Origin: Breznakibacter sp. | Lineage (GTDB): Bacteria; Bacteroidota; Bacteroidia; Bacteroidales; Marinilabiliaceae | Direction: 5' to 3' | DNA: 34,817 bases | Assembly (NCBI GenBank): GCA_018055415.1 | Contig: JAGPHP010000008.1 | Coordinates: forward strand, 1 to 34,817 | Shown: piece by piece, positions 1,341 through 19,241 of the stretch | How the letters are laid out: the number at the start of each line of letters is the position of its first letter | Position numbering within the stretch: position 1 is the first letter of the stretch | Translations under genes and position numbers: made by a program | Notes under the pieces: generated by a model | The model's database searches: none | The model's input: the letters and a program-made list of their open reading frames with translations, nothing else | Told to the model about the DNA's origin: nothing

Positions 1341-3047
1341 ATGTTGAAGTTAAAACTGAATATTGCTCAGAAACTTATTTATGGGTTTGGAACGATTCTT
1401 TTTGCCATATTCTTGAATGGTATCATTACTTTCTTCTCACTATCTAATAGTAGAGGACTGAATGAGGATGTGACCCAAGTTTACTCACCTTCGGTAGCAA
1501 TTTTAGATCAATATAACGCCATGATCGACCAATCGAAGATGTTGATCAGAAGTTGGGTGTTTGTTGATAAGCAACCTGGTGGCCCCGATAAAACTAAATT
1601 GGTTGTTATTCACGACTCTATCTATCCAGCCATAAAACAACAGATGAAAGCTATCTCTGTCAATTGGAAAGAGGAAGATGTGGCAAAGATGACCTCTGTT
1701 ATCAATAAAACGGATAGTCTTTTTACTTCGCATAAGTATGTTATGGAGAGCCTCTCTACATTTCAGTCATACGACGATGCGATGATCATGTTTGAAGTTG
1801 AACCAATGGTTACTGAAGGGGGAGACATTATAACGCTAAGTGATCAAATCAATGAAATTTTAAAAGGTCTAAGCAAAGAGTACAGTACAATCAATCAAGC
1901 TTCATTGGATGAGATGAACACTTCATTCTCTATCTTATCGTTCGTTATTGTTATTCTTTCATTAATAACTTTAGGTGCCTCGGTGGCCATGGGCTATTAT
2001 CTCTATAGCTCAATTGTTGTTCCTCTTCAAAAAGGTGTAACATTTGCCCAAGCCATTGGAAAAGGTGATCTCACTGCTACGGTTGATGTAAAACAAGATG
2101 ACGAAATTGGTGCATTAGCAGACGCCCTAAGAGATATGGCGGTGAATCTACGTCAAATTGTGGTCAGCATAAAAAATAATGCCAACGAGTTGGTTACCTC
2201 TAGTAGCTTATTAAAGTTTAGCTCAATACAACTAACAAAGGGATCTTCCGATCAAGCTGCTAATGCCGAGGAGGTTTCTACTTCGATTGAAGAGATGGTG
2301 GCAAATATTGAGCAAAACACAGAAAATGCTATTGCAACAGAAAAAATCACAGTTGAAACAGCTAAAGATGTATCTATAGCCGATCAACTCTCTTCTCAAG
2401 CAGCAAAAGCGATGAAGGAGGTTTCTGAAAAAATTACCATCATCGGAGATATCGCATTCCAAACCAATATTCTTGCGCTTAACGCGGCGGTTGAAGCGGC
2501 TCGTGCCGGAGAGCATGGTCGCGGATTTGCGGTTGTTGCGTCTGAGGTTCGTAAGTTAGCCGAAAGAAGTAAACTTGCTGCTAACGAAATATTTGGACTT
2601 GTAAATACTGGGTTAAAGGTGTCTAAAGAGGCTGGTGATAAAGCTCGTCTGTTAGTGCCTGATATTGAAAGAACAACACAATTGATCAAGGAGATTGCTG
2701 CTGCTAGTTTGGAGCAAAAAACGGGTGCTGATCAAATTAACTTAGCTATGCAACAGTTAAATAACATCACGCAAGAAAATGCCTCATCTTCAGATCAATT
2801 AACATCTAGCTCAGAGCAACTCTCTTATTTGGCTAATAGCCTTAAAGAGGCAATTGCTTTCTTCCAAATCGAGCTTGAAGAGGAGCAAAATGGTGAAATT
2901 GTTCCAACAGCTCCAACTCCTAGAGTTGAAAATAAAGCTAATACTTATATTCACGAGAGACCTAATTCAACTGTAACTCCAAGTAAATCATCAGATATTA
3001 TTAATCTTGGTAGAGAGTTTGATATTGATAATTACGAGAAGTTTTAA
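1341..3047 (+). CDS. Methyl-accepting chemotaxis protein with C-terminal CheR-tether-like pentapeptide
   Basis: The 568-residue transmembrane chemoreceptor should feed the CheA/CheW proteins encoded downstream. Order: cytoplasmic start, TM1 about 9-31, a roughly 165-residue periplasmic region probably of four-helix-bundle type, TM2 about 196-222, HAMP about 222-276, then the signalling coiled coil. The hairpin tip [16 protein letters not shown] lies near 385-400 and the preceding [13 protein letters not shown] is intact. The return helix carries the usual EIAAASLEQ and SSSEQL stretches, plausible methylation sites for CheR, CheB and CheD. A flexible Pro/Thr/Ser-rich tail from about 516 ends in NYEKF, fitting the x-aromatic-x-x-aromatic CheR-docking pentapeptide (NWETF in E. 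coli receptors). The ligand is unknown. It is the first gene of the operon and the only MCP in the window. Confidence 0.95.
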
Positions 3048-3062
3048 GTACTTATAACGTTT

Positions 3063-3365
3063 ATGGAAAATGTAAGCATTAAGCTTCATGATGATAAGTC
3101 AATTATCATTTTTAAAGGAGCCCTTAATATTAATTATATCTCCGCGATTAAAGGAGAACTAGAGGAGTTAATCTCTTTCGATAATGATATCGAGGTTCAC
3201 CTTGAGTCACCAGATAGTATTGATGTTACATTTGTTCAACTCTTGGTTGCACTAAGAAATTCGTGCAATGCAAAAGATTCAAAATTCAAAATAACAAGTC
3301 AACTCTCAGACGATGTCTTGGGACTGATGAAAAATGCAGGTTTAGAAGATTTATTTATTAATTAA
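3063..3365 (+). CDS. STAS-domain protein
   Basis: A 100-residue single-domain protein with the STAS fold pattern of anti-sigma-factor antagonists: a beta start (VSIKLHDDKSIIIFKGAL), a helix, then the loop-helix PDSIDVTFVQLLVALRNSC. In classical members this loop reads D-S-S-G-L and a Ser is phosphorylated by a partner kinase. Here it reads D54-V-T-F-V, so only T56 could serve. It lies 15 bases after the MCP and 13 before cheY, so it is very likely co-expressed. Given the SpoIIE-type phosphatase and SiaB-type kinase encoded later, it could be a second partner-switch component. It could equally be a scaffold that binds the array. Family call firm, role unknown. Confidence 0.8.
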   Translation: MENVSIKLHDDKSIIIFKGALNINYISAIKGELEELISFDNDIEVHLESPDSIDVTFVQLLVALRNSCNAKDSKFKITSQLSDDVLGLMKNAGLEDLFIN

Positions 3366-3378
3366 TAGAATCATAATT

Positions 3379-3744
3379 ATGGCAAAAACGGTTCTTATTG
3401 TTGACGACTCGGAAAGTATACGCGAAGTTGTAAACTTTACGCTTCAAAATGAGGGATACGACGTGTTAGTAGGGGTTGATGGCGAAGATGCGCTTAAATT
3501 CCTTGATGGACGAGAAATTGACATCATTATTACTGACCTTCATATGCCAAACCTTGATGGCTTAGGTCTTATCCGAAAAGTAAGAGAGATGGATACTTAT
3601 AAGCATATTCCAATTCTTTTCTTAACTACTGAATCTCAAGCATCTAAGAAGATGGAAGCTAAAGAGGCCGGCGCTACAGGTTGGATTATTAAACCTTTTG
3701 TTCCAGCGAAGTTACTAAGTGCAATTACAAGGGTTATTAGGTAA
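3379..3744 (+). CDS. cheY: CheY-type single-domain response regulator
   Basis: A 121-residue receiver domain with no output domain. Acidic pair D9-D10, phosphoacceptor D53 in IIITDLHMPNLDG, conserved T83/T84 in the LFLTTES strand, and K105-P106 in WIIKPF are all present, so it should accept phosphate from CheA. Because no flagellar motor gene is seen, its target is not evident. Candidates are a gliding-related or secretion-related partner, or the Sia/transport part of this operon. Its stop codon overlaps the next start (TAATG at 3742-3746), indicating translational coupling to the Hpt protein. Confidence 0.93.
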   Translation: MAKTVLIVDDSESIREVVNFTLQNEGYDVLVGVDGEDALKFLDGREIDIIITDLHMPNLDGLGLIRKVREMDTYKHIPILFLTTESQASKKMEAKEAGATGWIIKPFVPAKLLSAITRVIR

Positions 3745-4103
3745 TGGAAGAGATTATAAAAGGGTTTGTTGACGAAACTGTCAAAAATTTGGCAGAAACA
3801 ATTGAGTTTTGCTCAGTTGGGGATAGGTTGTTGGAGAAACGTGAGGTAGAAAAAGTATTCTTTGTTATGCACTCCCTAACAGGATCGGCGGCAATGTTCG
3901 GGTTTAATAATGTTGCGCAATATTCTTTATATACCGAGAGAGTGTATGATAAGATCCGAAAGGGCGAAAAACATATAACTCCCGAAATTAAGGATATGAC
4001 CGTTACTGTTTCTCAAAAAATAAAAAAGATTGTGCTAAAAGAGGATGTGAAAGGTGATCAACCTGAACTCATCGACTTTTTTAAAACACAGCTTGAAAGC
4101 TAA
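3744..4103 (+). CDS. Stand-alone Hpt (histidine phosphotransfer) domain protein
   Basis: A 119-residue all-helical Hpt domain. The phosphorylatable His is H43 in the motif HSLTGSAAMFGF, where typical Hpt domains read HxLKG, so the Lys two residues after the conserved Leu-Thr/Lys position is replaced by Thr. The same region of CheA in the next gene is HSLKGGGAMFGF, and the two share the AMFGFN run, so this looks like a duplicated copy of the CheA P1 domain. It could shuttle phosphate between CheA or another kinase and a receiver such as CheY or CheB. Coupled to cheY by a one-base overlap. Confidence 0.85.
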   Translation: MEEIIKGFVDETVKNLAETIEFCSVGDRLLEKREVEKVFFVMHSLTGSAAMFGFNNVAQYSLYTERVYDKIRKGEKHITPEIKDMTVTVSQKIKKIVLKEDVKGDQPELIDFFKTQLES

Positions 4104-4114
4104 AACTACGTTTG

Positions 4115-6208
4115 ATGATTGACAAGTTTAGGGGTAAGTTTGTAGAAGAGTCCTTAGATAATATTCGTGACCTCGAAGAGTCTCTCTTTTTATTAGAGGG
4201 TGACACTAAGAATCGCGAGATTATTGAACGGATCTTCCGTGCCATGCACTCGCTTAAAGGTGGTGGTGCCATGTTCGGATTTAACGATTTGAGTGAGTTC
4301 ACGCACCATTTAGAAACCGTTTTCGATTGGGTTCGTACGGGTAAGTTAGAGGTGTCTAAAGATCTCATTACCCTTACTTTTGAATCAGTAGATGAAATTA
4401 AAATTCTTCTTAATAAAGGTGACTTAACCGAAGAGTCTGACAAAGTTGAGTTAAGAGCAATTACCTCAAAAGTCAAAGGGTTCATTAATTTAAGTGGCAA
4501 AGTTGTTGCGTCAGCTTCCTCTCAGCAAAATGTGGCTGTAGTTGAATCACCAATCGAAACCTCGAAATCCTACTTAATTTCATTTATCCCAAATAAAGAT
4601 ATTCTTCAAAATGGAACCAATACGCTTTTCTTATTAGATGATCTTCATGGGATTGGCAATTTTGTTGTGCTTTCAAATTTTGATCATGTACCTACTTTCG
4701 AAAAACTTGATCCAACAACACACTACATCTCTTGGCAAGGGGTTCTTAATTCGGAAGAGAGTCTTAACGATATTAAGGATGTCTTTATCTTCGTTGAAGA
4801 TGAGTGTATTCTCGAAATCGATGAGATTTGCGTAGGTAATATTCTCGAGAATGAGGATTTTGTGCAGAAGTTCCAATCACATAAAAATGAGGGGAAATTC
4901 TTAAATAAAGAAGAGGTTCTTGCTTTTGGGAAAGCGCTCAGACCGCAAGTTGTTGTTGAGGCTGTGCCCAAAGCGGATGAGGATACTTTAGCTGCTGATA
5001 GACAAAAAGCCCATCTCAAAGAGAGTAAAATATCGAGTATTCGCGTGGCCTCTAAAAAGGTCGATGAGTTGGTGAATTTGGTCTCTGAGCTCGTTACCAT
5101 TCAGGCACAACTAAGCTTGTATGCCGAAAAGAGTGGCGATCCTGGAATACTTAATCTTACTGAGTCTGTTCAGAAGTTATCTCGACAACTTCGGGATAAT
5201 GCTTTTGAAATTAGTTTGATGCCACTGCAAGCCGAACTTCTAAGATTTCAACGTTTGGTTCGTGATCTCTCGAAGGATCTTAATAAAGAGATTAATCTCG
5301 AAATTGAAGGAGGAGATATTGAACTTGATAAGAATATTATAGAGCATCTTACCGATCCTTTACTGCACATGATTCGTAATAGTATCGATCATGGTATTGA
5401 AAATCCTCAAGAGCGTATCTCAAAAGGAAAACCAGCCCAAGGAACAATTAATTTTAAGGCCTATTACTCTGGACCTAGCGTAATCATTAAGCTAATTGAC
5501 GATGGTAAAGGTATCGATCCTATTCAAATTAAGAAGAAAGCCATCGCCAAAGGCTTGATAGATGCTAATGTTCAGCTAACAAACAAGGAGATATTTGACC
5601 TTCTCTTTTTGAGTGGTTTTACAACCAAGGAGTCTGTTTCTGATCTCTCAGGGCGTGGAGTTGGAATGGATGTTGTAAAACGAAAAATCTCCGAAATTAG
5701 AGGCGAGGTTACTATCGATTCGGTTGTTAATCAAGGAACTACCATAACATTGGAGCTTCCTATGACACTTTCAATTATTGATGGTTTGTTAGTAGCTTTA
5801 GCCGATAATCAATTTGTTTTACCTACATCAATTATTGAGAAGATCTTTGCAGTTAATGTGAAGGATTTGAAAATCAGCAATCATGTTATTGTCCTTGATA
5901 ATCAACAATATTCATTTATCTCATTGCGAGAGTTATTTCATGAAGAAGATATTGTTACAGGAAGAGAGCATATTATCTTAGTAAAAAATGATGATAAGAA
6001 GATTGCACTTTTGGTTGATGATATACTAGGTGAATATCAAGTAGTTGTAAAACCTTTAGGAAGGGTTTTAAAGAGTCAAGATATTATTTCTGGAGCCTCG
6101 ATCATGGGTGATGGAACGATCTCTTTGGTATTAGATATTCATCGCTTGGTTCACCATAATAATTTTAAGAGAGCAAGAGTTAAAAAATCTGGAACCGAAA
6201 ACTTGTAG
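4115..6208 (+). CDS. cheA: Chemotaxis histidine kinase CheA
   Basis: A 697-residue CheA with all core domains. P1/Hpt at about 1-105 with phosphorylated H45 (HSLKGG). A P2-like region at about 145-270 (YLISFIPNKDILQNGTN). P3 dimerisation helices at about 300-370. P4 ATPase at about 375-550 with N-box RNSIDH (N422), G1 DDGKGID (D462) and G2 GRGVGMD (513-519). P5, the CheW-like domain, to the end. It takes receptor input through CheW and phosphorylates CheY and CheB. I chose the ATG at 4115. An in-frame TTG at 4112 is one codon earlier and less likely. It sits 11 bases after the Hpt gene. Confidence 0.96.
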   Translation: MIDKFRGKFVEESLDNIRDLEESLFLLEGDTKNREIIERIFRAMHSLKGGGAMFGFNDLSEFTHHLETVFDWVRTGKLEVSKDLITLTFESVDEIKILLNKGDLTEESDKVELRAITSKVKGFINLSGKVVASASSQQNVAVVESPIETSKSYLISFIPNKDILQNGTNTLFLLDDLHGIGNFVVLSNFDHVPTFEKLDPTTHYISWQGVLNSEESLNDIKDVFIFVEDECILEIDEICVGNILENEDFVQKFQSHKNEGKFLNKEEVLAFGKALRPQVVVEAVPKADEDTLAADRQKAHLKESKISSIRVASKKVDELVNLVSELVTIQAQLSLYAEKSGDPGILNLTESVQKLSRQLRDNAFEISLMPLQAELLRFQRLVRDLSKDLNKEINLEIEGGDIELDKNIIEHLTDPLLHMIRNSIDHGIENPQERISKGKPAQGTINFKAYYSGPSVIIKLIDDGKGIDPIQIKKKAIAKGLIDANVQLTNKEIFDLLFLSGFTTKESVSDLSGRGVGMDVVKRKISEIRGEVTIDSVVNQGTTITLELPMTLSIIDGLLVALADNQFVLPTSIIEKIFAVNVKDLKISNHVIVLDNQQYSFISLRELFHEEDIVTGREHIILVKNDDKKIALLVDDILGEYQVVVKPLGRVLKSQDIISGASIMGDGTISLVLDIHRLVHHNNFKRARVKKSGTENL

Positions 6209-7156: not shown

Positions 7157-7161
7157 TTGTG

Positions 7162-8037
7162 ATGAGTTTAGATAAAAATAAAGATATGCAAAAAGAGTTG
7201 GAGTGCTTCAAAGCTGAGTTAAGCGACGCTGACTTCAAGATCTTTAGCGATTTTATTTATACTCAATATGGTATTAAAATGCCTCCTATTAAGAAGGTGA
7301 TGTTGCAAGGACGTCTTCTTAAAAGGATCAGAGAGTTAGGAATGAAGTCCTATACCGAATATAAAAACTATTTTTTTGGTAAAGAGGGACAAGAACGTGA
7401 ACTCTATAATTTTTTGAACGTTGTTACTACCAATAAAACAGATTTTTTTAGAGAACCTGTGCATTTCGATTTTTTGAGAAATAGTGTGATACCCGAATTT
7501 GTGTCTCATAAATTAGGTGGTCAGCAGTTTAAAGTTTGGAGTGCAGGATGTTCGAGCGGCGAGGAGTTATACACCATATCATTAGTTCTTAATGAGTATA
7601 AGAGAGAGAATATTGGATTTAATTACTCAATTTTAGGAACAGACATTTCGCATAATGTGATGGGAATTGCTGCTAAAGGGATCTACTCTGATAAAAAAAT
7701 TGAAACAGTGTCACTCGATCTTAAAAAGCGTTATTTCCTAAAGAGCAAGGATCGCGATAATCCTACCATAAAGGTTAGACCCGAATTGCAAAATAATGTC
7801 TCTTTAAAGTATTTAAATCTAATGGATAGTGTTTATGACATAAAAGAGATGTATAATGTTATTTTTTGCCGTAACGTGATGATCTATTTCGATAGACCCA
7901 CACAAGAGGCAGTAATTAATAAACTTTGTAGAAACTTGGAGCCAGGGGGCTATTTCTTTATTGGTCACTCCGAGTCTTTATCAGGAATGGATGTTCCACT
8001 ACAACATATTAAACCAACAATTTTTAGAAAAGTATAA
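7162..8037 (+). CDS. cheR: Chemoreceptor methyltransferase CheR
   Basis: A 291-residue SAM-dependent glutamate methyltransferase that methylates the receptor. The N-terminal helical CheR domain (about 15-100) is followed by the methyltransferase domain: SAM motif SAGCSSGEELYTI (G129-E135), the acidic ribose-binding D161 in LGTDIS, and FCRNVMIYFD (C236-N238). FFREP before the catalytic domain is typical. All key positions are intact, in contrast to the third CheR-like protein in this operon. It may dock on the NYEKF tail of the MCP. I chose ATG 7162; a GTG at 7159 directly before it is possible. Confidence 0.94.
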   Translation: MSLDKNKDMQKELECFKAELSDADFKIFSDFIYTQYGIKMPPIKKVMLQGRLLKRIRELGMKSYTEYKNYFFGKEGQERELYNFLNVVTTNKTDFFREPVHFDFLRNSVIPEFVSHKLGGQQFKVWSAGCSSGEELYTISLVLNEYKRENIGFNYSILGTDISHNVMGIAAKGIYSDKKIETVSLDLKKRYFLKSKDRDNPTIKVRPELQNNVSLKYLNLMDSVYDIKEMYNVIFCRNVMIYFDRPTQEAVINKLCRNLEPGGYFFIGHSESLSGMDVPLQHIKPTIFRKV

Positions 8038-8056: not shown

Positions 8057-8956
8057 ATGAGTAACTTATCTGACAAACAGCTTTTACGTGAACTAAAAAC
8101 TCGCCTTGAGGAGAGTAGTATGTACGAAAATGAAATGAAGGAGCTGACTCGTGAATTACAAGACGTTACCAAAAGGCTACGTGAGTCGGAGGCACTTAAA
8201 AGCCACTTTATTTCTAATATTTCTAATGAGATAATAAATCCATTTACTTCCATTTTAGGATTGTCTAAGGCCATACTGTCTGTTGAAAAACAAGATTGGA
8301 AAAAAGTCGTTTCTATGGTGGCTCTAATTCACTCAGAGGCATTTAATCTTGATTTCCAATTGAGAAATATCTTTGTAGCTGCTAAAATTGAAGCGGGCGA
8401 AATTCAGCCTAACACTGCTAAAGTGAATATTAAAAGCCTTATTCAAACAGTGCTCGATGGTTTTACCATTGTCTCGCGAAAAATGGGCATTGAGATAATT
8501 CTCAATTTTAATATTGAGCATGGTTTTGGAAAAAATTTCTACTTCAAAACAGATTCTGAGAAGCTAAAATTAATCGTGAGCAATTTGGTTAACAATGCTT
8601 TAAAGTATAGTTATAAGGATAGCAAGATAATTTTAACTATTAGTGTTGATGAAGACCTATTGACTATAAGTGTACAAGATTTTGGTACAGGTATCTCGGA
8701 AAAGAATCAAAAGATCATTTTTGAAAGATTTAAACGTTTGGATACAGGTATCAACTCGATTAATCGTGGTCATGGTTTGGGATTGTCTATTACCAAAGCG
8801 TTACTGGATGTTCTTGGAGGTAATATCGAAATAAAGAGTGTTAAGGGAGAAGGCTCAACGTTTGCAATCTTCGTTCCTGAAGCCAAAAATTTGGTCGATG
8901 GATTTAGTGGAGATGGAAATGATACTTTCTTTGATGATGGTGAAGAGATTTTTTAA
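8057..8956 (+). CDS. Histidine-kinase-like protein without the phosphoacceptor His; possible CheY-P phosphatase
   Basis: A soluble 299-residue protein: a coiled coil (about 5-48), a HisKA-like dimerisation region (about 45-115) and a complete HATPase domain. At the place where HisKA reads F-I-S-N-I-S-H-E-x-x-T/N-P the sequence is FISNISNEIINPF, so the phosphorylated His is Asn (N57, codon AAT). The ATP site looks good: N-box NLVNNALKYS, G1 DFGTGIS, F-box FERFKR, G2 GHGLGLS. The E58-x-x-N61 pair fits the E/D-x-x-T/N motif that gives HisKA kinases phosphatase activity. Autophosphorylation is therefore unlikely, while dephosphorylation of CheY or a scaffold role remains possible. The reading frame is open back into cheR (to 7961), but the ATG at 8057, 20 bases after the cheR stop, is the sensible start. 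Confidence 0.85.
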   Translation: MSNLSDKQLLRELKTRLEESSMYENEMKELTRELQDVTKRLRESEALKSHFISNISNEIINPFTSILGLSKAILSVEKQDWKKVVSMVALIHSEAFNLDFQLRNIFVAAKIEAGEIQPNTAKVNIKSLIQTVLDGFTIVSRKMGIEIILNFNIEHGFGKNFYFKTDSEKLKLIVSNLVNNALKYSYKDSKIILTISVDEDLLTISVQDFGTGISEKNQKIIFERFKRLDTGINSINRGHGLGLSITKALLDVLGGNIEIKSVKGEGSTFAIFVPEAKNLVDGFSGDGNDTFFDDGEEIF

Positions 8957-8968
8957 GGCATTAAGTTG

Positions 8969-9442
8969 ATGGATAATAATTACTTACAACATTTTTTATA
9001 TCCTTCTTCACTTTTCGTAAGTAAAGAACCATACTTAGTCAAGACAATTCTTGGCTCTTGCGTGGCTATTTGCATATGGGACAAAAGACTTAAAATTGGG
9101 GGATTAAATCATTACATGTTACCAACTTGGAATGGTAATGATTTGGCATCTCCCAAATATGGAAATATAGCCATCGATAAACTTATTGAGAAGATGGTTT
9201 TTTACGGCAGTAGGGTCGAAGATCTACAAGCCAAGGTTTTTGGAGGGGGAGAGATGATGGATACTGGCAAAAGTAAAATGTTAATTGGTGAGCGAAATAT
9301 TCGAATTGCGAAATTAATGTTGGAGGAGCGAAAAATTCCAATCATTGCTTCGAGCACTGGTGGAAAGCTTGGAAGAAAGATATTATTCTTTACGGATACG
9401 GGTGAAGTAAGACATAAATTTCTGGAGAAGAAAATAATTTAG
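8969..9442 (+). CDS. cheD: Chemoreceptor glutamine deamidase CheD
   Basis: A 157-residue CheD, the usual length. It deamidates receptor glutamines to glutamates and can bind CheC-type phosphatases. The catalytic Cys lies in TILGSCVAICIWD (C31), with the upstream Thr (T26) and the His of GGLNHYML (H48) forming the expected triad. The KVFGGGEMMD segment is also typical. ATG 8969 was chosen over a TTG one codon earlier. Notably no cheC or cheX gene is found near it, although CheD often pairs with CheC. Confidence 0.93.
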   Translation: MDNNYLQHFLYPSSLFVSKEPYLVKTILGSCVAICIWDKRLKIGGLNHYMLPTWNGNDLASPKYGNIAIDKLIEKMVFYGSRVEDLQAKVFGGGEMMDTGKSKMLIGERNIRIAKLMLEERKIPIIASSTGGKLGRKILFFTDTGEVRHKFLEKKII

Positions 9443-9525: not shown

Positions 9526-10635
9526 GTGGAGAAAAAGATTCGTGTTTTAATTGTTGATGATTCAGCTGTAGTTCGACAAAGTTTGTCCTCAATCTTGGAG
9601 TCTGATCCAGAAATTGAGGTAATGGGAACTGCGGCCGATCCTATCATAGCTGTTAAGAAAATTATGAAGGAAGTTCCCGACGTAATTACGCTTGATATTG
9701 AGATGCCACGAATGGATGGATTGACATTCTTACGCAAGATCATGTCTCAACATCCAATTCCTGTGGTTGTTATCTCATCACTTACCACTGAAGGTACAGA
9801 GGTGGCCATGAAGGCTTTAGAGTATGGCGCTACTGAAATTATTGGTAAGCCCTCAATGAATGCAGCGGAGTTTATCAACGAATCAAAAATATTCTTGTGC
9901 GATGCCGTTAAAGCTGCTGCACAATCTAAACTTTCTCGAAAAAAGAATATTGTTAGCTCTGCACCTTCTACCATCTCTACTAAACCAGCGATGGCAACGA
10001 CTGTAAATCCAAAATATAGTGCAGACGTAATTTTAGAAAAACCAACAGGTCACTCTCAAATTGTTGATACCGACAAAATTATTGTTCTCGGTGCCTCAAC
10101 TGGTGGGACTGAGGCCATCAGACAGTTCCTAAAAACGTTGCCTGATACAGTTCCTGGTATTGCAATTGTTCAGCACATGCCTGAAGGTTTTACCGCCTCT
10201 TTTGCTAATAGTTTGAATAATATCTGTTCGTTAAAAGTCAAAGAGGCAGCTAATGGCGATAAGTTGTCTCAAGGCACTGTTCTCATTGCTCCTGGCAATA
10301 AGCATATGTTGCTTAAGCGTGTTGGTCGCGAATATTTTGTGGAGGTTAAAGAGGGGCCTTTGGTTAATAGGCATCGTCCTGCCGTGGATGTCTTATTTCG
10401 TTCTGCAGCACGTTATGCCGGTAAAAATGCTATTGGTATTATTATGACAGGAATGGGTAATGATGGCGCACGAGGATTATTAGAACTAAAAGAGTCTGGT
10501 GCGCATACCATTGCGCAAGATGAGGCTTCTTCAATTGTTTTTGGAATGCCCAAAGAGGCCATAAAGTTGAATGCCGCTGATAAAATTCTGCCGCTTGATA
10601 AAATTGCAGGATACTTAGTGAGCAAAACTACTTAA
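9526..10635 (+). CDS. cheB: Chemoreceptor methylesterase CheB with receiver domain
   Basis: A 369-residue CheB. The receiver domain at about 4-125 has D11-D12, phosphoacceptor D57 ([10 protein letters not shown]) and the K of IIGKPS. A roughly 50-residue linker follows, then the methylesterase domain at about 178-365 with the catalytic triad S191 (GASTGG), H217 (VQHMPEGF) and D313 (GMGNDGARG). Phosphorylation by CheA should activate demethylation and deamidation of the MCP, giving adaptation together with CheR. Translation starts at GTG 9526, since this is the first start codon matching the conserved beginning ([12 protein letters not shown]). The 83-base gap before it is among the largest in the operon but shows no convincing promoter or terminator. 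Confidence 0.95.
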
Positions 10636-10667: not shown

Positions 10668-12545
10668 ATGAAAAAAAGAAAGTTAAGTGAATTAATAAAT
10701 AGATATACTATAAGGGGGGGAGTTATTGGACTAACCCTTTTTGTTTTGACTCTCCTTTTTAGTTTAAACTCACAGCTATTTCTGAGCGGTAATAGAACCT
10801 TAGTGGATCTATTTATTCTGTTTCCTGGATTATGGGTTGCTTTGGCTTTACCTTTCGTGTTTGGTTTAGTGGGCTACTATTTATCCCAAAGTTTTGTTAA
10901 ACGAATAATTAAACAACAAGAAAAGATAGAGATTGAAGCGCATCGCTCAGTCTTTGTTCTCGACTTTGTTGAAAATTTACGTTCGGGTGATTTTGAAACA
11001 GATATTCCTGAGTTAAAGAATAACGATCAATTAAGTACATCCTTACGAAACCTTCGTGAATATCTTATAGAGAGTAAACACGAAGAGGGGCAACGACGAA
11101 TTGAAGAGAAACAAAGAGCTTGGGTTACTCAGGGATTTGCTCAATTTGGCGAATTACTACGTAATAATAATGATAACCTCGAAGCACTTTCATTAGATAT
11201 TATTAGCTATTTAGTTAACTATTTGAAGATTAATCAAGGAGGTTTCTTCCTAATTAATAGTAACGATGCTGGTGATAAATATTTCGAACTGAAAGCTTTT
11301 GTGGCTTATGATCGTCGCAAATTTGCCGACAAAATCATTAGTTGGGGTGAGGGTTTGATTGGTCGATGTGGTCTTGAAAAAGAGACTATTTACATGACCG
11401 ATATTCCTAATAATTATCTTAATGTAACTTCGGGTTTGGGTGAAGCCAATCCAAGAGCATTATTGATTGTACCACTGAAGATTAACGATGAAATATATGG
11501 TGTTATTGAATTGGCTTCATTTAATCCATTTGAGCCGTTCCAAATTGAATTTATTGAAAAGGCAGCTGAGAGTATTGCATCAACAATTGCGACGGTAAAA
11601 ATAAATATCCAAACAGCTAAATTACTCCGCGAGACTCAAATTCAAGCTGAAAAAATGCTTCAACAAGAGGAGGAGTTGCGTCAGAATCTAGAGGAGATGC
11701 AAGCTACTCAAGAGGAGTCTGAACGTCGTGAAATTGAGATGAAGGGTATTCTTGAGGCAATTGATCACTCTGTGATTAGTTGCGAATTTGAAACGGATGG
11801 AACTCTTCTTTCGGTAAATCAGATATTTCTTAAGACATTTAAATATTCTATTGAAGAGGTTGAATTCCAGAATATTAAGATCTTCTTTTTCAAAGATGAT
11901 CACGACCAGATTCAGAAAATTCTAGATGATCTAAGGGCGGGTAATAACTTTAAGAATAGACTTCGACGACGTACTAAACTTGGTGAAGAGATTTTCCTAC
12001 TTTCAACATTTACTCCTGTTATGGATAGCGAGGGTGAGATTATTAAAATCCTCTCTCTTGAAATTGATGTGACCGAACAAGTGAGAATGGAAGAACAGGT
12101 TAAAAATGCCAAAGATGAGTTGGGAATACGCTTGGAAGAGGCCAAAAATGAGGTTAAGGAGCAATTTAAGGTATTAGAGCAATCTCGTTTGCGCAATGAA
12201 AAGACTCTTGAGGGTGCATTAGATGCCATTGTTACTATAAATAATGATGGAACAGTTGAGTTCTTTAATCTTGCAGCAGAAAAGTTGTGGGGTTTTAGTC
12301 GTTCGGAGGTGATAGGGAATAATATATCCATGTTATTTTCGGCAGAAACAATTAGTTCTGAGGAGTTTGTGGCTGCCTACGTGAATCCTGCCGCTGAGAA
12401 AATTGTTGGAGAACGACGAGAAGTTCCTATTCGCAATAAATTTGGTGATGATGTAGCAGTTCTTTTCCTCTTATCTGAAGCAAAGGTGGGAGATGATCAC
12501 TCATATACTGCCTTTATCCAGAATATTGAGGTAGAGTTATTCTAA
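10668..12545 (+). CDS. Membrane GAF-PAS-PAS protein without an enzymatic output domain
   Basis: A 625-residue protein with two membrane segments near the N-terminus (about 17-38 and 46-72), a linker, a GAF domain (about 155-315), a coiled coil rich in Gln/Glu (about 325-355), PAS1 (about 355-480), a second coiled coil, and PAS2 (about 510-615). It ends shortly after PAS2, with no kinase, cyclase, phosphatase or MCP domain. The GAF domain contains GEGLIGRCGLEKETIYMTD and the SGLGEANP stretch, closely echoed in the genes at 14823 and 15607. It may sense a small molecule or redox state and pass this to a partner by coiled-coil contact, perhaps the phosphatase encoded at 15607. It follows cheB by 32 bases. 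Confidence 0.85.
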   Translation: MKKRKLSELINRYTIRGGVIGLTLFVLTLLFSLNSQLFLSGNRTLVDLFILFPGLWVALALPFVFGLVGYYLSQSFVKRIIKQQEKIEIEAHRSVFVLDFVENLRSGDFETDIPELKNNDQLSTSLRNLREYLIESKHEEGQRRIEEKQRAWVTQGFAQFGELLRNNNDNLEALSLDIISYLVNYLKINQGGFFLINSNDAGDKYFELKAFVAYDRRKFADKIISWGEGLIGRCGLEKETIYMTDIPNNYLNVTSGLGEANPRALLIVPLKINDEIYGVIELASFNPFEPFQIEFIEKAAESIASTIATVKINIQTAKLLRETQIQAEKMLQQEEELRQNLEEMQATQEESERREIEMKGILEAIDHSVISCEFETDGTLLSVNQIFLKTFKYSIEEVEFQNIKIFFFKDDHDQIQKILDDLRAGNNFKNRLRRRTKLGEEIFLLSTFTPVMDSEGEIIKILSLEIDVTEQVRMEEQVKNAKDELGIRLEEAKNEVKEQFKVLEQSRLRNEKTLEGALDAIVTINNDGTVEFFNLAAEKLWGFSRSEVIGNNISMLFSAETISSEEFVAAYVNPAAEKIVGERREVPIRNKFGDDVAVLFLLSEAKVGDDHSYTAFIQNIEVELF

Positions 12546-12562: not shown

Positions 12563-13408
12563 ATGGCTATCTCATACAGTGATTTCCTGTTGGAACTTAA
12601 AAAGCATACTCCCTACGACTTTATGGAGTATTCGCATAACTCTATCCATAGGAGAATAACAAAAGTTCTAACCGATTATGCTCTTGATTTGGATTCGATG
12701 GTTGAGCGTATCAAGACGGACTCGGATTTTGTTGAGAAAATTGTTGAAGAAATAACTGTTAATACCACCGAACTTTTTCGTGATCCCGATGTGTGGGTAT
12801 ATCTTTATGAGAATGTATATCCAAAATTAAAGAATAAGAAGAGTATTAATATCTGGCATGCTGGTTGTTCGTCTGGTCAAGAGGTGTATTCCAATATGAT
12901 TTTGCTTAATGAGCTTGGATTACTTGATAAAAGTAAAATTTTTGCAACCGATTTAAATCAACGTGTATTAAACTCTGCAAAGTCTGGAAAATATAAATAT
13001 CGCTTTAATAAGAAGTATATTGACAATTTTACGCATGTAATAAGTAAGGTCTCTTTTCAAGGCGATAATCCAAATCCATTTGAAAAATACTTTGTCATTA
13101 ATGAGGAGGAAGACACCATGCAGATTTTATCGGAGTTTAGGAAAATTCCCGATTTCAAAAAGCATGATTTGGTAAGTGTACATAGCCCTTTTGCACACAA
13201 ATTCGATATAATTTTTTGTCGTAATGTATTGATTTATTTTAATACAGGTTTGCAAGATCGAATTGTAAAGTTGTTTCATGAGCACACTTTTGATGGAGGA
13301 TTTTTAATTCTTGGAGCTCATGAAAACCTAAGTGGGTTCTTTAAGACAAAATATATACGGGAAAGTTTTGTGTACAAACGCACAGGTATTTTTCATATGA
13401 AATTTTAA
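12563..13408 (+). CDS. Second CheR-family methyltransferase
   Basis: A 281-residue CheR homologue. Motif I is HAGCSSGQE (H99-E107; Q replaces the first Glu of the usual GEE), the acidic SAM-ribose residue is D130 (ATDLNQ), and FCRNVLIYFN (C219-N221) is intact, so SAM binding and catalysis are plausible. TTELFRDPDVW is the usual entry to the catalytic domain. The N-terminal helical part is recognisable but short. It follows the GAF/PAS protein by 17 bases and precedes a degenerate paralogue. Its substrate may be a protein other than the MCP, for example one of the GAF/PAS coiled coils. Confidence 0.88.
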   Translation: MAISYSDFLLELKKHTPYDFMEYSHNSIHRRITKVLTDYALDLDSMVERIKTDSDFVEKIVEEITVNTTELFRDPDVWVYLYENVYPKLKNKKSINIWHAGCSSGQEVYSNMILLNELGLLDKSKIFATDLNQRVLNSAKSGKYKYRFNKKYIDNFTHVISKVSFQGDNPNPFEKYFVINEEEDTMQILSEFRKIPDFKKHDLVSVHSPFAHKFDIIFCRNVLIYFNTGLQDRIVKLFHEHTFDGGFLILGAHENLSGFFKTKYIRESFVYKRTGIFHMKF

Positions 13409-13420
13409 TAGTTTTTCGTA

Positions 13421-14248
13421 ATGGCGATATCTTTGGGTATAAATGAGTTGAAATCGATGGTTGAATCGCTAACAGATAAGTTAGGGTTTGACTATTCTTT
13501 AATCTCCATATCATTTTTAAAGAGGCGATTGAACTTAGTCTTTGATGAATTGAATATCAAAAAGACAGAGTCTTTTATTGATAACTTAACTGATCGTGAG
13601 TTTGCAGATAAATTCTATTACAATTTAGCTGTTCCAACCTCTGAGTTATTTCGCGATCCCTCTTTTTGGCGATCATTGAGAAGTAAGGTTCTTAGTAATG
13701 ACGAAAATAGAGGTATTGTATGGTTTCCAGACGCCTCCTCTGGTGAAGAAATTTTTACACTCCTTATCCTGCTTTCTGAAATGGGATTGCTCGACTCCTA
13801 TGAGATACATTGTACTCATCAATCAAATGTTAAATTGCAAGAGATTGGACAAGGAATTTTGAAAGCTAAGAATATCGATATTAATGAAAATAATTTTAAG
13901 CGTTTTGGCACAAAAGGATCGCTCTCAGACTATTTTGATAATACCGAGCAAGGGCTTCAACTTAAGGCAATTTATGCCGGAAAGCTAGTGTGCCATAATC
14001 ATCATTTTATGCAGCATACTTTTATTAAAAAGCCATCAATTGTTATTTTTAGAAATAGCATGTTGTATTTTACCAAAAAAGGGGCGTGTGATGCCCTGAT
14101 TTCAATCTATAACGAAATGGCACCTAAGGGTTTTCTCGCGGTTGGTGTTAAAGAGAGTTTACATGGACCTGTATTGTCAAATATGGTTTGTTTTGACAAT
14201 GCAGAACAAATTTATATGCGTCATCCAGCTGCAGTCACTGAGTTATGA
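13421..14248 (+). CDS. Degenerate CheR-like protein, probably not an active methyltransferase
   Basis: A 275-residue homologue of the preceding CheR. The overall order is kept (helical N-terminus, PTSELFRDPSFW, then a motif I region), but the SAM site is altered. Motif I reads WFPDASSGEE, with Asp (D104) where active CheR has the first Gly. The ribose-binding Asp of TDL/TDI is His (H133 in CTHQSN). The CRN triplet before the IYF strand is FRN (R211, N212). I infer that it binds SAM poorly or not at all and may act as a partner of the active CheR at 12563, as a decoy, or as a pentapeptide reader. Its stop overlaps the next start (ATGA at 14245-14248). Confidence 0.82.
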   Translation: MAISLGINELKSMVESLTDKLGFDYSLISISFLKRRLNLVFDELNIKKTESFIDNLTDREFADKFYYNLAVPTSELFRDPSFWRSLRSKVLSNDENRGIVWFPDASSGEEIFTLLILLSEMGLLDSYEIHCTHQSNVKLQEIGQGILKAKNIDINENNFKRFGTKGSLSDYFDNTEQGLQLKAIYAGKLVCHNHHFMQHTFIKKPSIVIFRNSMLYFTKKGACDALISIYNEMAPKGFLAVGVKESLHGPVLSNMVCFDNAEQIYMRHPAAVTEL

Positions 14249-14823
14249 GTTTAGATAGAAAATATAAAGCGGTTGTAATTGGTGGATCTGCAGGCAGTTT
14301 TGCGGTAGTATCTAAAATATTAGCGCAATTAAATAAAGAGTTTCCTCTACCAATTATTCTTTGTTTGCACCGCCTAAAGCATGTGCGTTCTGGTCTTGTA
14401 GAAGGACTGAATCTGAAATCAAATATTGAGGTTGTAGAACCTTTTGATAAAGAGAAAATAATGGCTGGTCGGGTTTATTTGGCTCCTGCTAATTATCATC
14501 TCTTTCTTGATTTTGATTATACGTTTTCACTCTCCACCGAGGAGGTTTTAAATCATTCAAGACCTTTAATAGATCATACACTGAGTTCGGCGGGATTTCT
14601 ATATCGTGAAAAGCTTGTTGGAATACTCCTAACGGGTGCCAATAGAGATGGTGCTAAAGGGATGAAGGATATAGCCGATAAAAAGGGTTTTACTATTGTT
14701 CAGGATCCTTCTACTTGCGAAGTTGATACAATGCCCAAAGCGGCTCTTAAGATTATGTCACCCGATTTGATTCTTGATTACAATGGGATCATTAATTTTT
14801 TAAACTCTTTGGAAGCTTACTGA
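14245..14823 (+). CDS. CheB-type methylesterase domain without receiver
   Basis: A 192-residue protein consisting only of the CheB catalytic domain. The triad is present: S15 in VIGGSAGS, H42 in LCLHRLKHV, D135 in LLTGANRDGAKG. With no receiver domain it lacks the phosphorylation control of the first CheB. The flanking residues differ from classical CheB (GGSAGS for GASxGG, LHRL for QHMP), hinting at another substrate. Overlaps of four bases with the CheR-like gene before and one base (TGATG) with the GAF gene after suggest a coupled CheR/CheR-like/CheB/GAF unit. Related domains occur fused as CheB-CheR-PAS hybrids in other bacteria; here they are separate proteins. Confidence 0.87.
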   Translation: MSLDRKYKAVVIGGSAGSFAVVSKILAQLNKEFPLPIILCLHRLKHVRSGLVEGLNLKSNIEVVEPFDKEKIMAGRVYLAPANYHLFLDFDYTFSLSTEEVLNHSRPLIDHTLSSAGFLYREKLVGILLTGANRDGAKGMKDIADKKGFTIVQDPSTCEVDTMPKAALKIMSPDLILDYNGIINFLNSLEAY

Positions 14824-15606: not shown

Positions 15607-18219
15607 ATGCCTTTAACTGCCGATAGAAATAGTATTAAAAAACGGTTTAGTCTTAAACTTTTTAGTGAGTTAGAACTCTTTGTTCTGCACGTCACTACTA
15701 TGTTTGTATTGTTAATTACGTGGGCTGGATTTCTCTCATTTGTAAGTCAACCTTTTCATATTCTATCGATCATTCAACTACATAGCTCGTTTGTGGTTTG
15801 GCTTATTGATGCAATTATTGTGGCGCTTCCCTTTGCCATCATTTATAGTCGCAACTCCCGTTATCTATATGCTAAAAAGTTGGAGAGCGAGCTTAATGAA
15901 CTTAAGCGTAAAGTTGAATCAAACATTGAAACGGCATCACTAATTGGAGAAGGTCGTCTTGAGCAAATTGTTGCTGGGGATGACAAAATGGCTCAAACGC
16001 TGCTTCAAATGGGGCAGAAATTAAAAGAAAATAAAGTGAAAGAAGACTCCTTGCAGTGGATAACTAAAGGTAAGGAGATCTTAAACGATACGTTACGTTC
16101 TCATAACGACTTAGATAGCCTCTCGAGAGGGGTTGTGAAATTGATTGTAGATTATACTAAAGCAGTTCAGGGAACCATTTTTTTGTTGGATAATGGCGAC
16201 GTTCTTAGAAATGTCTCTACTTATGCGTACAATCGCTATAGATATCTAAATCAAGAGATCTCAATCGGGAAGGGGCTTATAGGTCAAGTTGCTTACGAAA
16301 AGCAGATGATTCATCGGACTGAATTACCAGACGATTACTGCTCTATTTCGAGTGGACTATTGGGTGATGCAAAACCAAAATCAATTATTATTATCCCTCT
16401 TTTGCAAGAGGAGGAGTTGCAGGGAGTACTTGAATTAGCCTTTATTGATAGCTTTTTGCCAAAATATAAGCTTCTTTTTGCCGAGGAGTTGAGTAACATG
16501 ATTGGTCGAACAATCTTTAATTTAAAAGTTACAAGACAAACAGAGATTCTTTTGCGCGAGTCGCAAGAGATGACAAAGGCTTTGCGTATCAATGAAGAGA
16601 AGCTTCAACAAAATGCGTTGGAGGTGCTTGCATCAAAGGAGCAGTTGGAAAAATCAAATGTTTTACTTGAAACTCAATTCGTGGAGGTTGAGAATGGCCG
16701 TAAACGTTTGCAAGCGTTATTGACGAATGCATCTGAATTTATCTCAATCTATGATAGCGAAAGAAGACTTATCTATGAGTCTCCATCGGTAAAGCGAATT
16801 CTAGGATATGACGATAGCGATAGTGTCTTGGGGATGGATCCTGATCTATTAACTCCAAGAGGTTTAAAAACGATAGGAGCACTTTTTCAGTTTCTTTATG
16901 ATACTCCTGGAGGGGAGATGACAGCCCAGTATAATTATCTAAAGAAGAGCGGGGAAAAGATATTCCTTGAAACAAAAGGGAAGAACTTATTACACGATCC
17001 CGCTATTAAGGGTATCATATTAAATACTCAAGATATTACCGAACGCAAACGGGCGGAAAAAGAGGAGAGAATGAAGAGTAGAATGCAATCTCTCTCTGAG
17101 AACTCTCCCGATATGATTATTCGTGTAAACCCTTTAGGAAGGCTAGTTTATTTCAACCCTGCACTTGCTAAATTCATAGGTGTCGAGAGTGTTGATCTTG
17201 TTAAGCGAAGAATCTATGATTTGCCTCTTGGAGAGCTCTTCTCTCAATTCGTTGAAGGAGCTTTGGACTCAATAAAATCGAATAATCTTCAAGTTGTTTC
17301 AGAGATTGAAGTTATTAGTGGTGAAGAGCTTAGAGTGATGGAGGTTAAGGCCATCCCTGAATTAGGTGACGATAAGGAGCTCGAAACAATCTTATTTGTT
17401 GTGCATGATGTAACCGAGTTGAAGTTAATAGAACAAGAGATAAAAGAGAAAAATAAAAAGATCTCTGACAGTATTAACTATGCTCAGAGGATTCAAACCT
17501 CAATTTTACCTGATACAAGAGTTTTACAGCACTATTTCCCTCGATCCTTTATTTTTTATAGGCCAAAGGATATTGTTAGTGGTGATTTCCCTTGGTTTTT
17601 TGTGAAGGACGATGTTTATTATATTGCGGCAGTTGACTGTACCGGACACGGGGTGCCTGGAGCTCTCCTCTCATTTATTGGGTACTTTTTATTAAATAAC
17701 ATAGTTAATATTGATAAAAATCAATCAGCTGCTGAGATTCTTGAGACTCTGCATCAGCTCGTTAGAACAACTCTTCGTCAAGATCAGGATGGGGCTAATG
17801 GTAGGGATGGTATGGATTTGGCTTTGTGTAAAATTGACTCTAAAAAGGGAGAACTTCAATATGCAGGTGCCCATCGACCACTCTATTATCTTCGTGATGG
17901 TGAGTTAATTGAGTATGCAGGATCTAGAAAAGCGATCGGAGGTATTCCTCTTGCAAAAAAAATTGAGAAGGAATTTGAAAATCATGTCATTAACTATCGG
18001 AAAGGTGATAAATTTTTTATATTTTCGGATGGATTACCAGATCAGTTAGGAGGCCCAGAAGGAAAAAAATATCAAGCTAAACGAATTCGAGAGTCGTTAA
18101 CAGAGAATAGTAATCAAACTATGGCACATTTTGCACGCTTTTTCTCACAAGATTTCCATGAATGGATTGGAAATGAGAAACAAGTTGATGATGTTTTGCT
18201 AATAGGAATAGAATTGTAA
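15607..18219 (+). CDS. Membrane GAF-PAS-PAS-SpoIIE (PP2C-type) phosphatase, SiaA-like
   Basis: 870 residues: two membrane segments (about 21-46 and 58-82), a HAMP-like linker (about 90-145), GAF (about 160-310), a coiled coil (about 310-365), PAS1 (about 365-485), PAS2 (about 490-615), and a SpoIIE-type PP2C serine/threonine phosphatase domain (about 625-870). Metal-binding acids are in place: D660 (SGDFPWFF), D677 (DCTGHGVPGA), D808 (FSDGLPDQLGG), D861-D862 at the end. It is directly followed by SiaB- and SiaC-like genes, so by analogy with Pseudomonas SiaA its substrate should be the phosphorylated SiaC-like protein. Sensory input may come through GAF/PAS and through the CheR/CheB-like neighbours. 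One departure from family consensus is GDFPW instead of GDFYW. Confidence 0.92.
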   Translation: MPLTADRNSIKKRFSLKLFSELELFVLHVTTMFVLLITWAGFLSFVSQPFHILSIIQLHSSFVVWLIDAIIVALPFAIIYSRNSRYLYAKKLESELNELKRKVESNIETASLIGEGRLEQIVAGDDKMAQTLLQMGQKLKENKVKEDSLQWITKGKEILNDTLRSHNDLDSLSRGVVKLIVDYTKAVQGTIFLLDNGDVLRNVSTYAYNRYRYLNQEISIGKGLIGQVAYEKQMIHRTELPDDYCSISSGLLGDAKPKSIIIIPLLQEEELQGVLELAFIDSFLPKYKLLFAEELSNMIGRTIFNLKVTRQTEILLRESQEMTKALRINEEKLQQNALEVLASKEQLEKSNVLLETQFVEVENGRKRLQALLTNASEFISIYDSERRLIYESPSVKRILGYDDSDSVLGMDPDLLTPRGLKTIGALFQFLYDTPGGEMTAQYNYLKKSGEKIFLETKGKNLLHDPAIKGIILNTQDITERKRAEKEERMKSRMQSLSENSPDMIIRVNPLGRLVYFNPALAKFIGVESVDLVKRRIYDLPLGELFSQFVEGALDSIKSNNLQVVSEIEVISGEELRVMEVKAIPELGDDKELETILFVVHDVTELKLIEQEIKEKNKKISDSINYAQRIQTSILPDTRVLQHYFPRSFIFYRPKDIVSGDFPWFFVKDDVYYIAAVDCTGHGVPGALLSFIGYFLLNNIVNIDKNQSAAEILETLHQLVRTTLRQDQDGANGRDGMDLALCKIDSKKGELQYAGAHRPLYYLRDGELIEYAGSRKAIGGIPLAKKIEKEFENHVINYRKGDKFFIFSDGLPDQLGGPEGKKYQAKRIRESLTENSNQTMAHFARFFSQDFHEWIGNEKQVDDVLLIGIEL

Positions 18220-18246
18220 CTATATTTGAGCTTAATTTCTATTTAC

Positions 18247-18834
18247 ATGGAATATATGGAGAACATTGAAGAAGGAAAGGGTTTTTTAGATTTCGCTTAT
18301 CAGTTGTATAAGACGATGAAGACGAATCAGATTAGTTTGGTGTACGAAGGAGAGGTTACTCAAGAGATCACTAAAACATTTACTGCTCTTACAGAGAAGA
18401 ACTTAGCTAAGAGTGCTGAGTCAAACACTGTGCAAAGAAAGGTCTTTAATGTAATGGTTGAGTGTTTGCAAAATATTAGTAAGCATGCCGATACAATTAG
18501 TGAAGAGGGAGATGATAGTAAGGAACGTCGTGGAATTGTTATTATCAGCAAAACCGATGATGGCTATAATATTATTACTGGAAACGTTGTGAAAACGGCC
18601 AAAGTAAGTGATCTTCAAGCAAGTTTGGAGCTGATAAATAGTCTTGATAAAGAGGGTTTATCAAATTTGTATAAGCAACAAATCGTAGAAGGACGTATAT
18701 CTGAAAAGGGTGGAGCCGGGTTAGGATTAATTGATATAGCAAAGAAAAGTGGCGAGAAGTTAGGTTATCAATTTAAAGAGATAAATAGTTCTGTATCATT
18801 TTTTATTCTAACCTCAACAATTAAAAGAGTATAA
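18247..18834 (+). CDS. SiaB-family protein kinase (DUF6272)
   Basis: A 195-residue GHKL-fold protein of the SiaB type. An N-box-like stretch NVMVECLQNISKHAD (N68, E72, N76, H80) and a glycine-rich lid GGAGLGLIDIAKKSG (from G155) mark the ATP site. Pseudomonas SiaB phosphorylates SiaC on a threonine, and this protein should do the same to the neighbour at 18861, opposed by the phosphatase at 15607. The frame can be extended to a TTG at 18226, but the ATG at 18247 fits better; another ATG at 18256 is possible. It starts 27 bases after the phosphatase stop. Confidence 0.85.
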   Translation: MEYMENIEEGKGFLDFAYQLYKTMKTNQISLVYEGEVTQEITKTFTALTEKNLAKSAESNTVQRKVFNVMVECLQNISKHADTISEEGDDSKERRGIVIISKTDDGYNIITGNVVKTAKVSDLQASLELINSLDKEGLSNLYKQQIVEGRISEKGGAGLGLIDIAKKSGEKLGYQFKEINSSVSFFILTSTIKRV

Positions 18835-18860
18835 GTACAATCTAGTAAATAAAGAATAAG

Positions 18861-19241
18861 ATGGAAGTTATAAATATAAAGGGTACTGAAGATACCCCGT
18901 TTGTGACACTTGATAAAGGAGCGAATCTGTTTCAAATCTCTGGCCGCTCATTGCCTGAGGATGTGAATCAGTTTTATAATCCTGTATTGAAATGGATAGA
19001 CGCCTATAAGGATGCTCCAAATGCAAAGACTGAGTTTGATTTTAAACTGGAGTATTTCAATACTGCATCATCGAAAGTTATTCTAGACATCTTGCTTAAG
19101 TTGGAAGAGATTATGGAAGCTGGACATGCTGTTGTTATTAGATGGCATTACCATGAAGATGAGGAAGATATGCGTGAAGCTGGAGAGGAGTATGCTGATA
19201 TTGTAGAAATACCATTTGAATATATTGTATTACCAGACTAA
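18861..19241 (+). CDS. SiaC-family regulatory phosphoprotein (DUF1987)
   Basis: A 126-residue SiaC-type protein, the normal family length. The segment FKLEYFNTASSKVILDILL contains T68, which matches in motif and number the threonine phosphorylated in Pseudomonas SiaC. The C-terminal part with paired acidic residues (HEDEEDMREAGEEYAD) followed by a VEIPFEYI strand is also typical. In Pseudomonas, unphosphorylated SiaC binds and activates the diguanylate cyclase SiaD. No such gene lies here, and the next gene is an ABC transporter, so the target is unknown. The 26-base gap before and the 15-base gap after keep it in the operon. Confidence 0.92.
   Translation: MEVINIKGTEDTPFVTLDKGANLFQISGRSLPEDVNQFYNPVLKWIDAYKDAPNAKTEFDFKLEYFNTASSKVILDILLKLEEIMEAGHAVVIRWHYHEDEEDMREAGEEYADIVEIPFEYIVLPD

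Follow-up and report, generated by a model that had tools for sequence, protein, structure and literature searches.

The gene at positions 8057..8956 (+ strand) of the window encodes a pseudo-histidine kinase of 299 residues in an open frame, termed HKn here. The window is the whole stretch of DNA that was analysed, 34 817 nucleotides of Breznakibacter sp. contig JAGPHP010000008.1; the source genome (G000) is 2.65 Mb and 88% complete, and its nearest relatives belong to Marinilabiliaceae, order Bacteroidales. In all likelihood HKn does not act as a kinase but is dedicated to reading or dephosphorylating a phosphorylated chemotaxis signal. An Asn occupies the position of its phosphoacceptor His, and its gene sits between cheR and cheD as a standard component of the Bacteroidales CheR–CheD chemosensory system. 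A literature search, which was not exhaustive, returned no published description of the HKn family, and no description of chemosensory signal termination and adaptation in Bacteroidales was found in the literature searched. HKn is a concrete and testable candidate for the missing CheY~P phosphatase piece of Bacteroidales chemotaxis. If it is a phosphatase, it would provide a natural test of a HisKA phosphatase activity kept alone after loss of the His; in DivL both activities are lost.

Overall architecture of HKn

HKn is predicted to consist of a two-helix DHp domain and an adjoining HATPase_c domain with N, G1, F and G2 boxes. A long helix (residues 6–75), the start of which is conserved (residues 4–16), includes DHp α1 and is followed by α2 (residues 81–113), the CA ATPase domain (residues ∼118–276) and a C-terminal tail (residues 282–299) that is disordered in the model. 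No sensor domain was found, and HKn is a soluble protein. The Pfam match to HATPase_c has an E value of 8e-25; the HisKA match is sub-threshold (19.0 bits versus a cut-off of 26.9), and two further coiled-coil-like matches both fall below their cut-offs. The NCBIfam matches are to histidine kinases only, with none at cut-off. Pfam gave no match to a CheC or CheX domain, and the modelled fold is that of a histidine kinase. The AlphaFold model (pLDDT 79) has as its best structural match HK853 with its regulator RR468 (6rh0; Z score 24.7, r.m.s.d. 2.8, 229 aligned), and DivL is a near neighbour (4q20; Z score 24.5).

The H-box comprises residues 50–63 (8204..8245, + strand, HFISNISNEIINPF). The translated frame contains FISNISNEIINPFTSILGLSK, corresponding to N57-E58-I-I-N61-P62 at the H-box, with N57 at the position of the phosphoacceptor His. 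The original prediction, made from this sequence alone, had noted this replacement in an ISNEIINPF H-box, and both the frame and the residues are confirmed.

Conservation across orthologues

The alignment of HKn orthologues contains 122 sequences (∼62 effective sequences at 80% identity) and extends down to 34–37% identity. The His of active HisKA kinases is missing from every one of them: Asn is found at position 57 in 122/122, as are N61, which is the Asn at +4 from the His position and the HisKA phosphatase residue, and P62, while E58 is present in 121/122, with one Gln. Conservation within the protein is highest around the H-box and in the latter half of α2. The ATP-binding boxes, which had been predicted to be intact, are likewise invariant or strongly conserved in the 122 sequences (N176/N180/K183, D208-x-G210-x-G212, F222/F225 and G238-x-G240-x-G242). 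Every paralogous kinase retrieved from G000 (L002–L008) has His in the H-box, and a pattern scan of all fetched loci returned 89 Asn, 49 His and nothing else at that position. No His-bearing orthologue was seen in the cheR-x-cheD slot among the fetched loci. A sequencing error or local mutation at N57, for which this alignment had been proposed as the check, is thus ruled out. A merely decaying site would vary, so the near-invariance of N57, E58, N61 and P62 points to selection, and the alignment indicates that HKn is a fixed and selected pseudokinase family.

Operon organization and distribution

The first half of the operon runs MCP, STAS, CheY, Hpt, CheA, CheW, CheW, CheR, HKn, CheD, CheB. 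The chemoreceptor (MCP; 1341..3047, + strand), which ends in a tether-like NYEKF, is followed by a small STAS protein (3063–3365) that precedes cheY (3379..3744, + strand). CheY is a single REC domain and is the favoured candidate partner of HKn. A stand-alone Hpt protein (3744–4103) is encoded between cheY and cheA (4112..6208, + strand; Hpt, dimerisation, HATPase and CheW-like domains); in the neighbourhoods read, no such Hpt was recognised outside Marinilabiliaceae-type loci. The receptor methyltransferase gene cheR (7159..8037, + strand) is the upstream member of a conserved cheR-HKn-cheD unit, and the tether-binding subdomain of its product aligns without gaps with that of Salmonella CheR. 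Between cheR and the start of HKn lie 20 bases, and between the end of HKn and the ATG of cheD lie 12. The cheD gene (8966..9442, + strand), of the receptor deamidase family, is located directly 3′ of HKn, and its product is without the Met-Phe pair typical of CheD proteins that bind CheC. Next come cheB (9526..10635, + strand; REC and methylesterase domains), an alternative candidate receiver-domain partner of HKn, and an adjoining GAF-PAS gene (10668..12545, + strand), the product of which has a -V-E-L-F end that is conserved across Bacteroidales.

The same arrangement recurs elsewhere. In nearly every neighbourhood read, cheR lies 5′ of HKn and cheD, if the contig extends that far, lies 3′ of it; cheB is the next gene past cheD in most clusters. 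Two stand-alone cheR-HKn-cheD cassettes (L173 8147–10429 and L174 8048–10381) are located away from cheA and cheY; neither Hpt nor CheA adjoins them and there is no cheB alongside either. HKn was found in 67 of 295 Bacteroidales genomes (E ≤ 1e-45), all 67 of which also contain CheD, from a total of 80 CheD-positive genomes. Among the 13 with CheD and no HKn, two (G196 and G308) have cheR-cheD-cheB clusters, G280 has a different che cluster, and in the remaining ones read (G102 left out) cheD is solitary or divergent. In a 149-genome Bacteroidales subset, HKn is present in 38 of the 42 CheA-positive genomes and in none of the 107 CheA-negative ones. The four exceptions (G077, G153, G079 and G139) have che clusters with no cheD adjoining cheA; these clusters were read directly, as the HKn profile search gave no separation from ordinary kinases below ∼180 bits in these genomes.

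A single-sequence search of 395 genomes of the phylum at E ≤ 1e-45 returned no orthologue outside the source genome itself, a cut-off that is too strict for distant HKn proteins: L234 and L235 were missed by it and were reached via a CheD search. This search covered 340 genomes of the class; beyond Bacteroidales, HKn stands beside cheR and cheD in two of the three further CheD-bearing genomes. The H-box Asn is also found in the distant proteins (RNEINNPL in L234 and MNEIINPL in L235).

Known CheY~P phosphatases

No protein of the operon matches CheZ, CheC, CheX or FliY. This absence, which the original prediction had noted for the operon, extends over the order: among 149 Bacteroidales genomes including G000, CheC is found in none, CheZ exceeds its cut-off in none and CheX has one borderline match in a genome (G070) other than the source genome. 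Control searches for CheC, CheZ and CheX were positive in the expected genomes. The G070 match lies on a short stretch (L197) with GC-rich-looking frames and may be contamination.

The phosphatase gap is real for the order, yet it is also present in CheA-positive genomes that have no HKn; none of CheC, CheX and CheZ was found in the four such genomes, which implies that some systems need neither these proteins nor HKn. Conversely, a CheC-like gene (8292–8921 of L234; 20.8 bits versus a cut-off of 22) shares an operon with HKn. The idea that HKn merely fills the absence of CheC, CheX and CheZ is weakened by both observations. Together with the stand-alone cassettes, they show that the HKn gene follows cheD and cheR, not the mere absence of a phosphatase.

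CheC/CheX/FliY and the CheC–CheD pair have in common with HKn the ExxN spacing, a close link to cheD and a presumed action on CheY~P; their fold is unrelated. The HKn loci also differ from the CheC–CheD system in their CheD. In species with CheC, CheD carries a signature Met-Phe pair (PMC3513319), whereas the CheD proteins examined here have Leu/Val/Met followed by Leu/Ile/Met, with Phe in only 3/118. Any contact between CheD and HKn would therefore differ from that made by CheC.

Functional implications

Work on four HisKA kinases assigned separate roles to two residues: phosphatase activity alone depends on the Thr/Asn at +4, and kinase activity alone on the Glu/Asp at +1 (Willett and Kirby, PMC3510030). 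Of the E58/N61 motif that had been put forward as a phosphatase signature, the N61 half agrees with this work and the Glu half does not, since the acidic residue is specific to the kinase reaction; the retention of E58, which is useless to a kinase without its His, is not accounted for by these experiments. Loss of the His has had different outcomes: CrdS H371A retains the greater part of its phosphatase activity, giving a regulator half-life of 2.6 min compared with 53.5 min for the regulator alone and 0.7 min with the wild type, and PleC H610A has lost its phosphatase activity (PMC3510030). Bifunctional HisKA kinases in their phosphatase state (HK853, CrdS, NtrB and EnvZ) share with HKn the DHp and CA fold, the E-x-x-T/N motif, the ATP boxes and the regulator-docking helix. 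HKn differs from them in its family-wide Asn for His, its lack of a sensor domain, its -E-x-F tail and its place within a chemotaxis operon. Judged by its motif residues, HKn fits a kinase-minus, phosphatase-plus protein.

Our preferred reading, a tentative one, is that HKn has no kinase activity, binds CheY~P, probably as a phosphatase, and is coupled to CheR/CheD adaptation. With Asn at the phosphoacceptor site, the usual autophosphorylation would not be possible. In this model CheY~P most likely docks on the DHp helix of an HKn dimer as RR468 does on HK853, and N61 would then speed its dephosphorylation, the E58-x-x-N61 spacing being that of the two-residue ExxN motif of CheX (PMC3510030). 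The state of HKn may be coupled to CheD and/or CheR, which are encoded on either side of it, possibly with the -E-x-F tail acting as a docking peptide. The level of CheY~P would thereby feed back on receptor modification, as it does with CheC in Bacillus (PMC3513319), and HKn would take the place that CheC, to which it is unrelated, has in CheC–CheD systems. A bolder version is speculative and rather unlikely as a whole: a histidine-kinase fold would have been turned into a CheY~P-operated adaptation arm in Bacteroidales, which binds and dephosphorylates CheY~P, signals to CheR/CheD via a receptor-like tail and replaces the CheC–CheD switch.

The proposal that a kinase fold has been reduced to a phosphatase thus gains from the fixed loss of the His, the invariant N61, the conserved H-box and the lack of known phosphatases; the further proposal that it fills a gap is harder to maintain, given that HKn tracks cheD and cheR, that some CheA-positive genomes have neither and that L234 has a CheC-like gene. 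The preferred reading has against it DivL, PleC H610A, L234, the four CheA-positive genomes with neither HKn nor a known phosphatase, the absence of HKn from G196 and G308, and the CheD proteins that lack Met-Phe.

We considered the alternatives in the order of a DivL-like reader, CheB~P as the target, a scaffold or tail mimic, a trans-kinase and a relocated phosphoacceptor at H50. The first, a possible but less probable reading, is that HKn uses its DHp face to recognise CheY~P (or CheB~P), leaves the phosphate in place and informs CheD/CheR or the array. DivL, a pseudo-histidine kinase of Caulobacter, resembles HKn in its fold and in having lost the His of a HisKA domain that is itself maintained by selection. 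It retains a Thr at the +4 position. It differs in having Tyr and not Asn at the site, PAS domains, poor ATP binding and DivK and CckA as partners; it is phospho-specific, binding DivK~P and even stabilising it, with neither kinase nor phosphatase activity (PMC4211667). With this counter-example, retention of the motif alone does not separate a phosphatase from a reader. In B. subtilis, moreover, CheY~P-dependent CheC–CheD binding outweighs the phosphatase activity of CheC (PMC3513319), and the association of HKn with cheD and cheR points the same way. Against a reader that only binds stand the invariance of N61, whose specific role in the HisKA proteins tested is phosphatase catalysis (PMC3510030), and the retention of all ATP boxes, in which HKn departs from DivL.

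The target could also be CheB~P, with HKn tuning receptor demethylation within a CheR–CheD–CheB set. The position of cheB directly past cheD in most clusters favours this, but we consider it improbable: no cheB adjoins the L173 and L174 cassettes, and the divergence of HKn follows CheY better than CheB. After removal of shared divergence, HKn distances track CheY most (partial r of 0.48, compared with 0.17 for CheB and 0.06 for CheR), although this comparison is a weak hint only, since common descent and the selection of a single CheY from each locus both confound it.

The C-terminal tail

A feature that is new in this analysis is the conserved and apparently disordered -E-x-F tail of HKn, which resembles the tether of the chemoreceptors that these operons encode. 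The acidic tail (residues 282–299, 8900..8953, + strand, GFSGDGNDTFFDDGEEIF) is kept to its last residue, with F299 in 117/122 and E297 in 105/122. At the same loci, MCPs end in -[YF]-E-[KRST]-F (E-x-F in 84/97) and GAF-PAS proteins in -V-[ED]-L-F (E-x-F in 74/88), the latter matching the -E-[IL]-F of HKn. For comparison, an E-x-F end occurs in four among several hundred CheA, CheB, CheD, CheR, CheW and CheY proteins of the operons. Known CheR/CheB tethers are characterized by negative charge, a Phe in last position and an aromatic residue fourth from the end (PMC7390727). The MCP tail fits this consensus. Aromatic residues at both positions 2 and 5 of the canonical pentapeptide are found in only 1/140 HKn-type C-termini, and the HKn tail, which lacks the fourth-last aromatic, is by its sequence like a canonical CheR/CheB tether but is not one. 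In G308, which has lost HKn, a GAF-PAS-like protein (L218) ends in FIQSVQ and the ELF is missing; the parallel loss is suggestive, as a single case.

The tail raises the possibility that HKn is chiefly a scaffold or receptor-tail mimic, docked by -E-x-F on CheR (or on CheB or CheD) so as to sequester or place adaptation enzymes, with the regulator face secondary. Its conservation to the last residue, its sharing with MCPs and GAF-PAS proteins and its rarity in other operon proteins are in line with such a role, as are the negative charge and terminal Phe of known tethers (PMC7390727). The aromatic that dominates at the fourth-last position of those tethers is absent, though, and neither the invariant H-box nor the ATP boxes would be required if HKn were purely a scaffold; we consider this reading improbable.

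Possible residual kinase function

With intact ATP boxes and an Hpt gene (3744–4103) in its operon, HKn might act as a trans-kinase, its ATPase domain phosphorylating a foreign His such as that of the Hpt protein or of a mixed-dimer partner. Phosphorylation in trans occurs in R. sphaeroides, from CheA4 to CheA3 (PMC3591291). CheA3 also parallels the preferred reading of HKn, as a histidine-kinase-type phosphatase of a chemotaxis regulator (PMC3591291); unlike HKn, it has CheA architecture and a phosphorylatable P1 domain. A trans-kinase is very improbable, given the cheR-HKn-cheD cassettes that neither Hpt nor CheA adjoins and the lack of a stand-alone phospho-acceptor common to all HKn loci. 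Hardly credible is a relocation of the phosphoacceptor to H50 (8204–8206), seven residues or two helical turns before N57, which is His in 114/122 HKn sequences and variable in the ordinary kinases fetched: the other eight orthologues, otherwise normal, have Asn there, and position 58 still carries the Glu with which the canonical His works.

Downstream part of the operon

After CheB the operon continues with GAF-PAS, CheR2, CheR3, CheB2, GAF, GAF-PAS-SpoIIE, DUF6272, SiaC and a TerB-ABC transporter. Following the main cheR/cheB set, the region 12563–14823 contains two more CheR-like genes and a gene for a CheB methylesterase that has no receiver domain. The second of the CheR-like proteins matches CheR weakly, and its SAM-binding loop is altered. 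The region 15607–19241 encodes a phosphatase of GAF-PAS-SpoIIE (PP2C) type, a SiaB-like protein of the DUF6272 family and a SiaC-family phosphoprotein. These make up a partner-switching set like SiaABC, through which the chemosensory pathway may have a second output.
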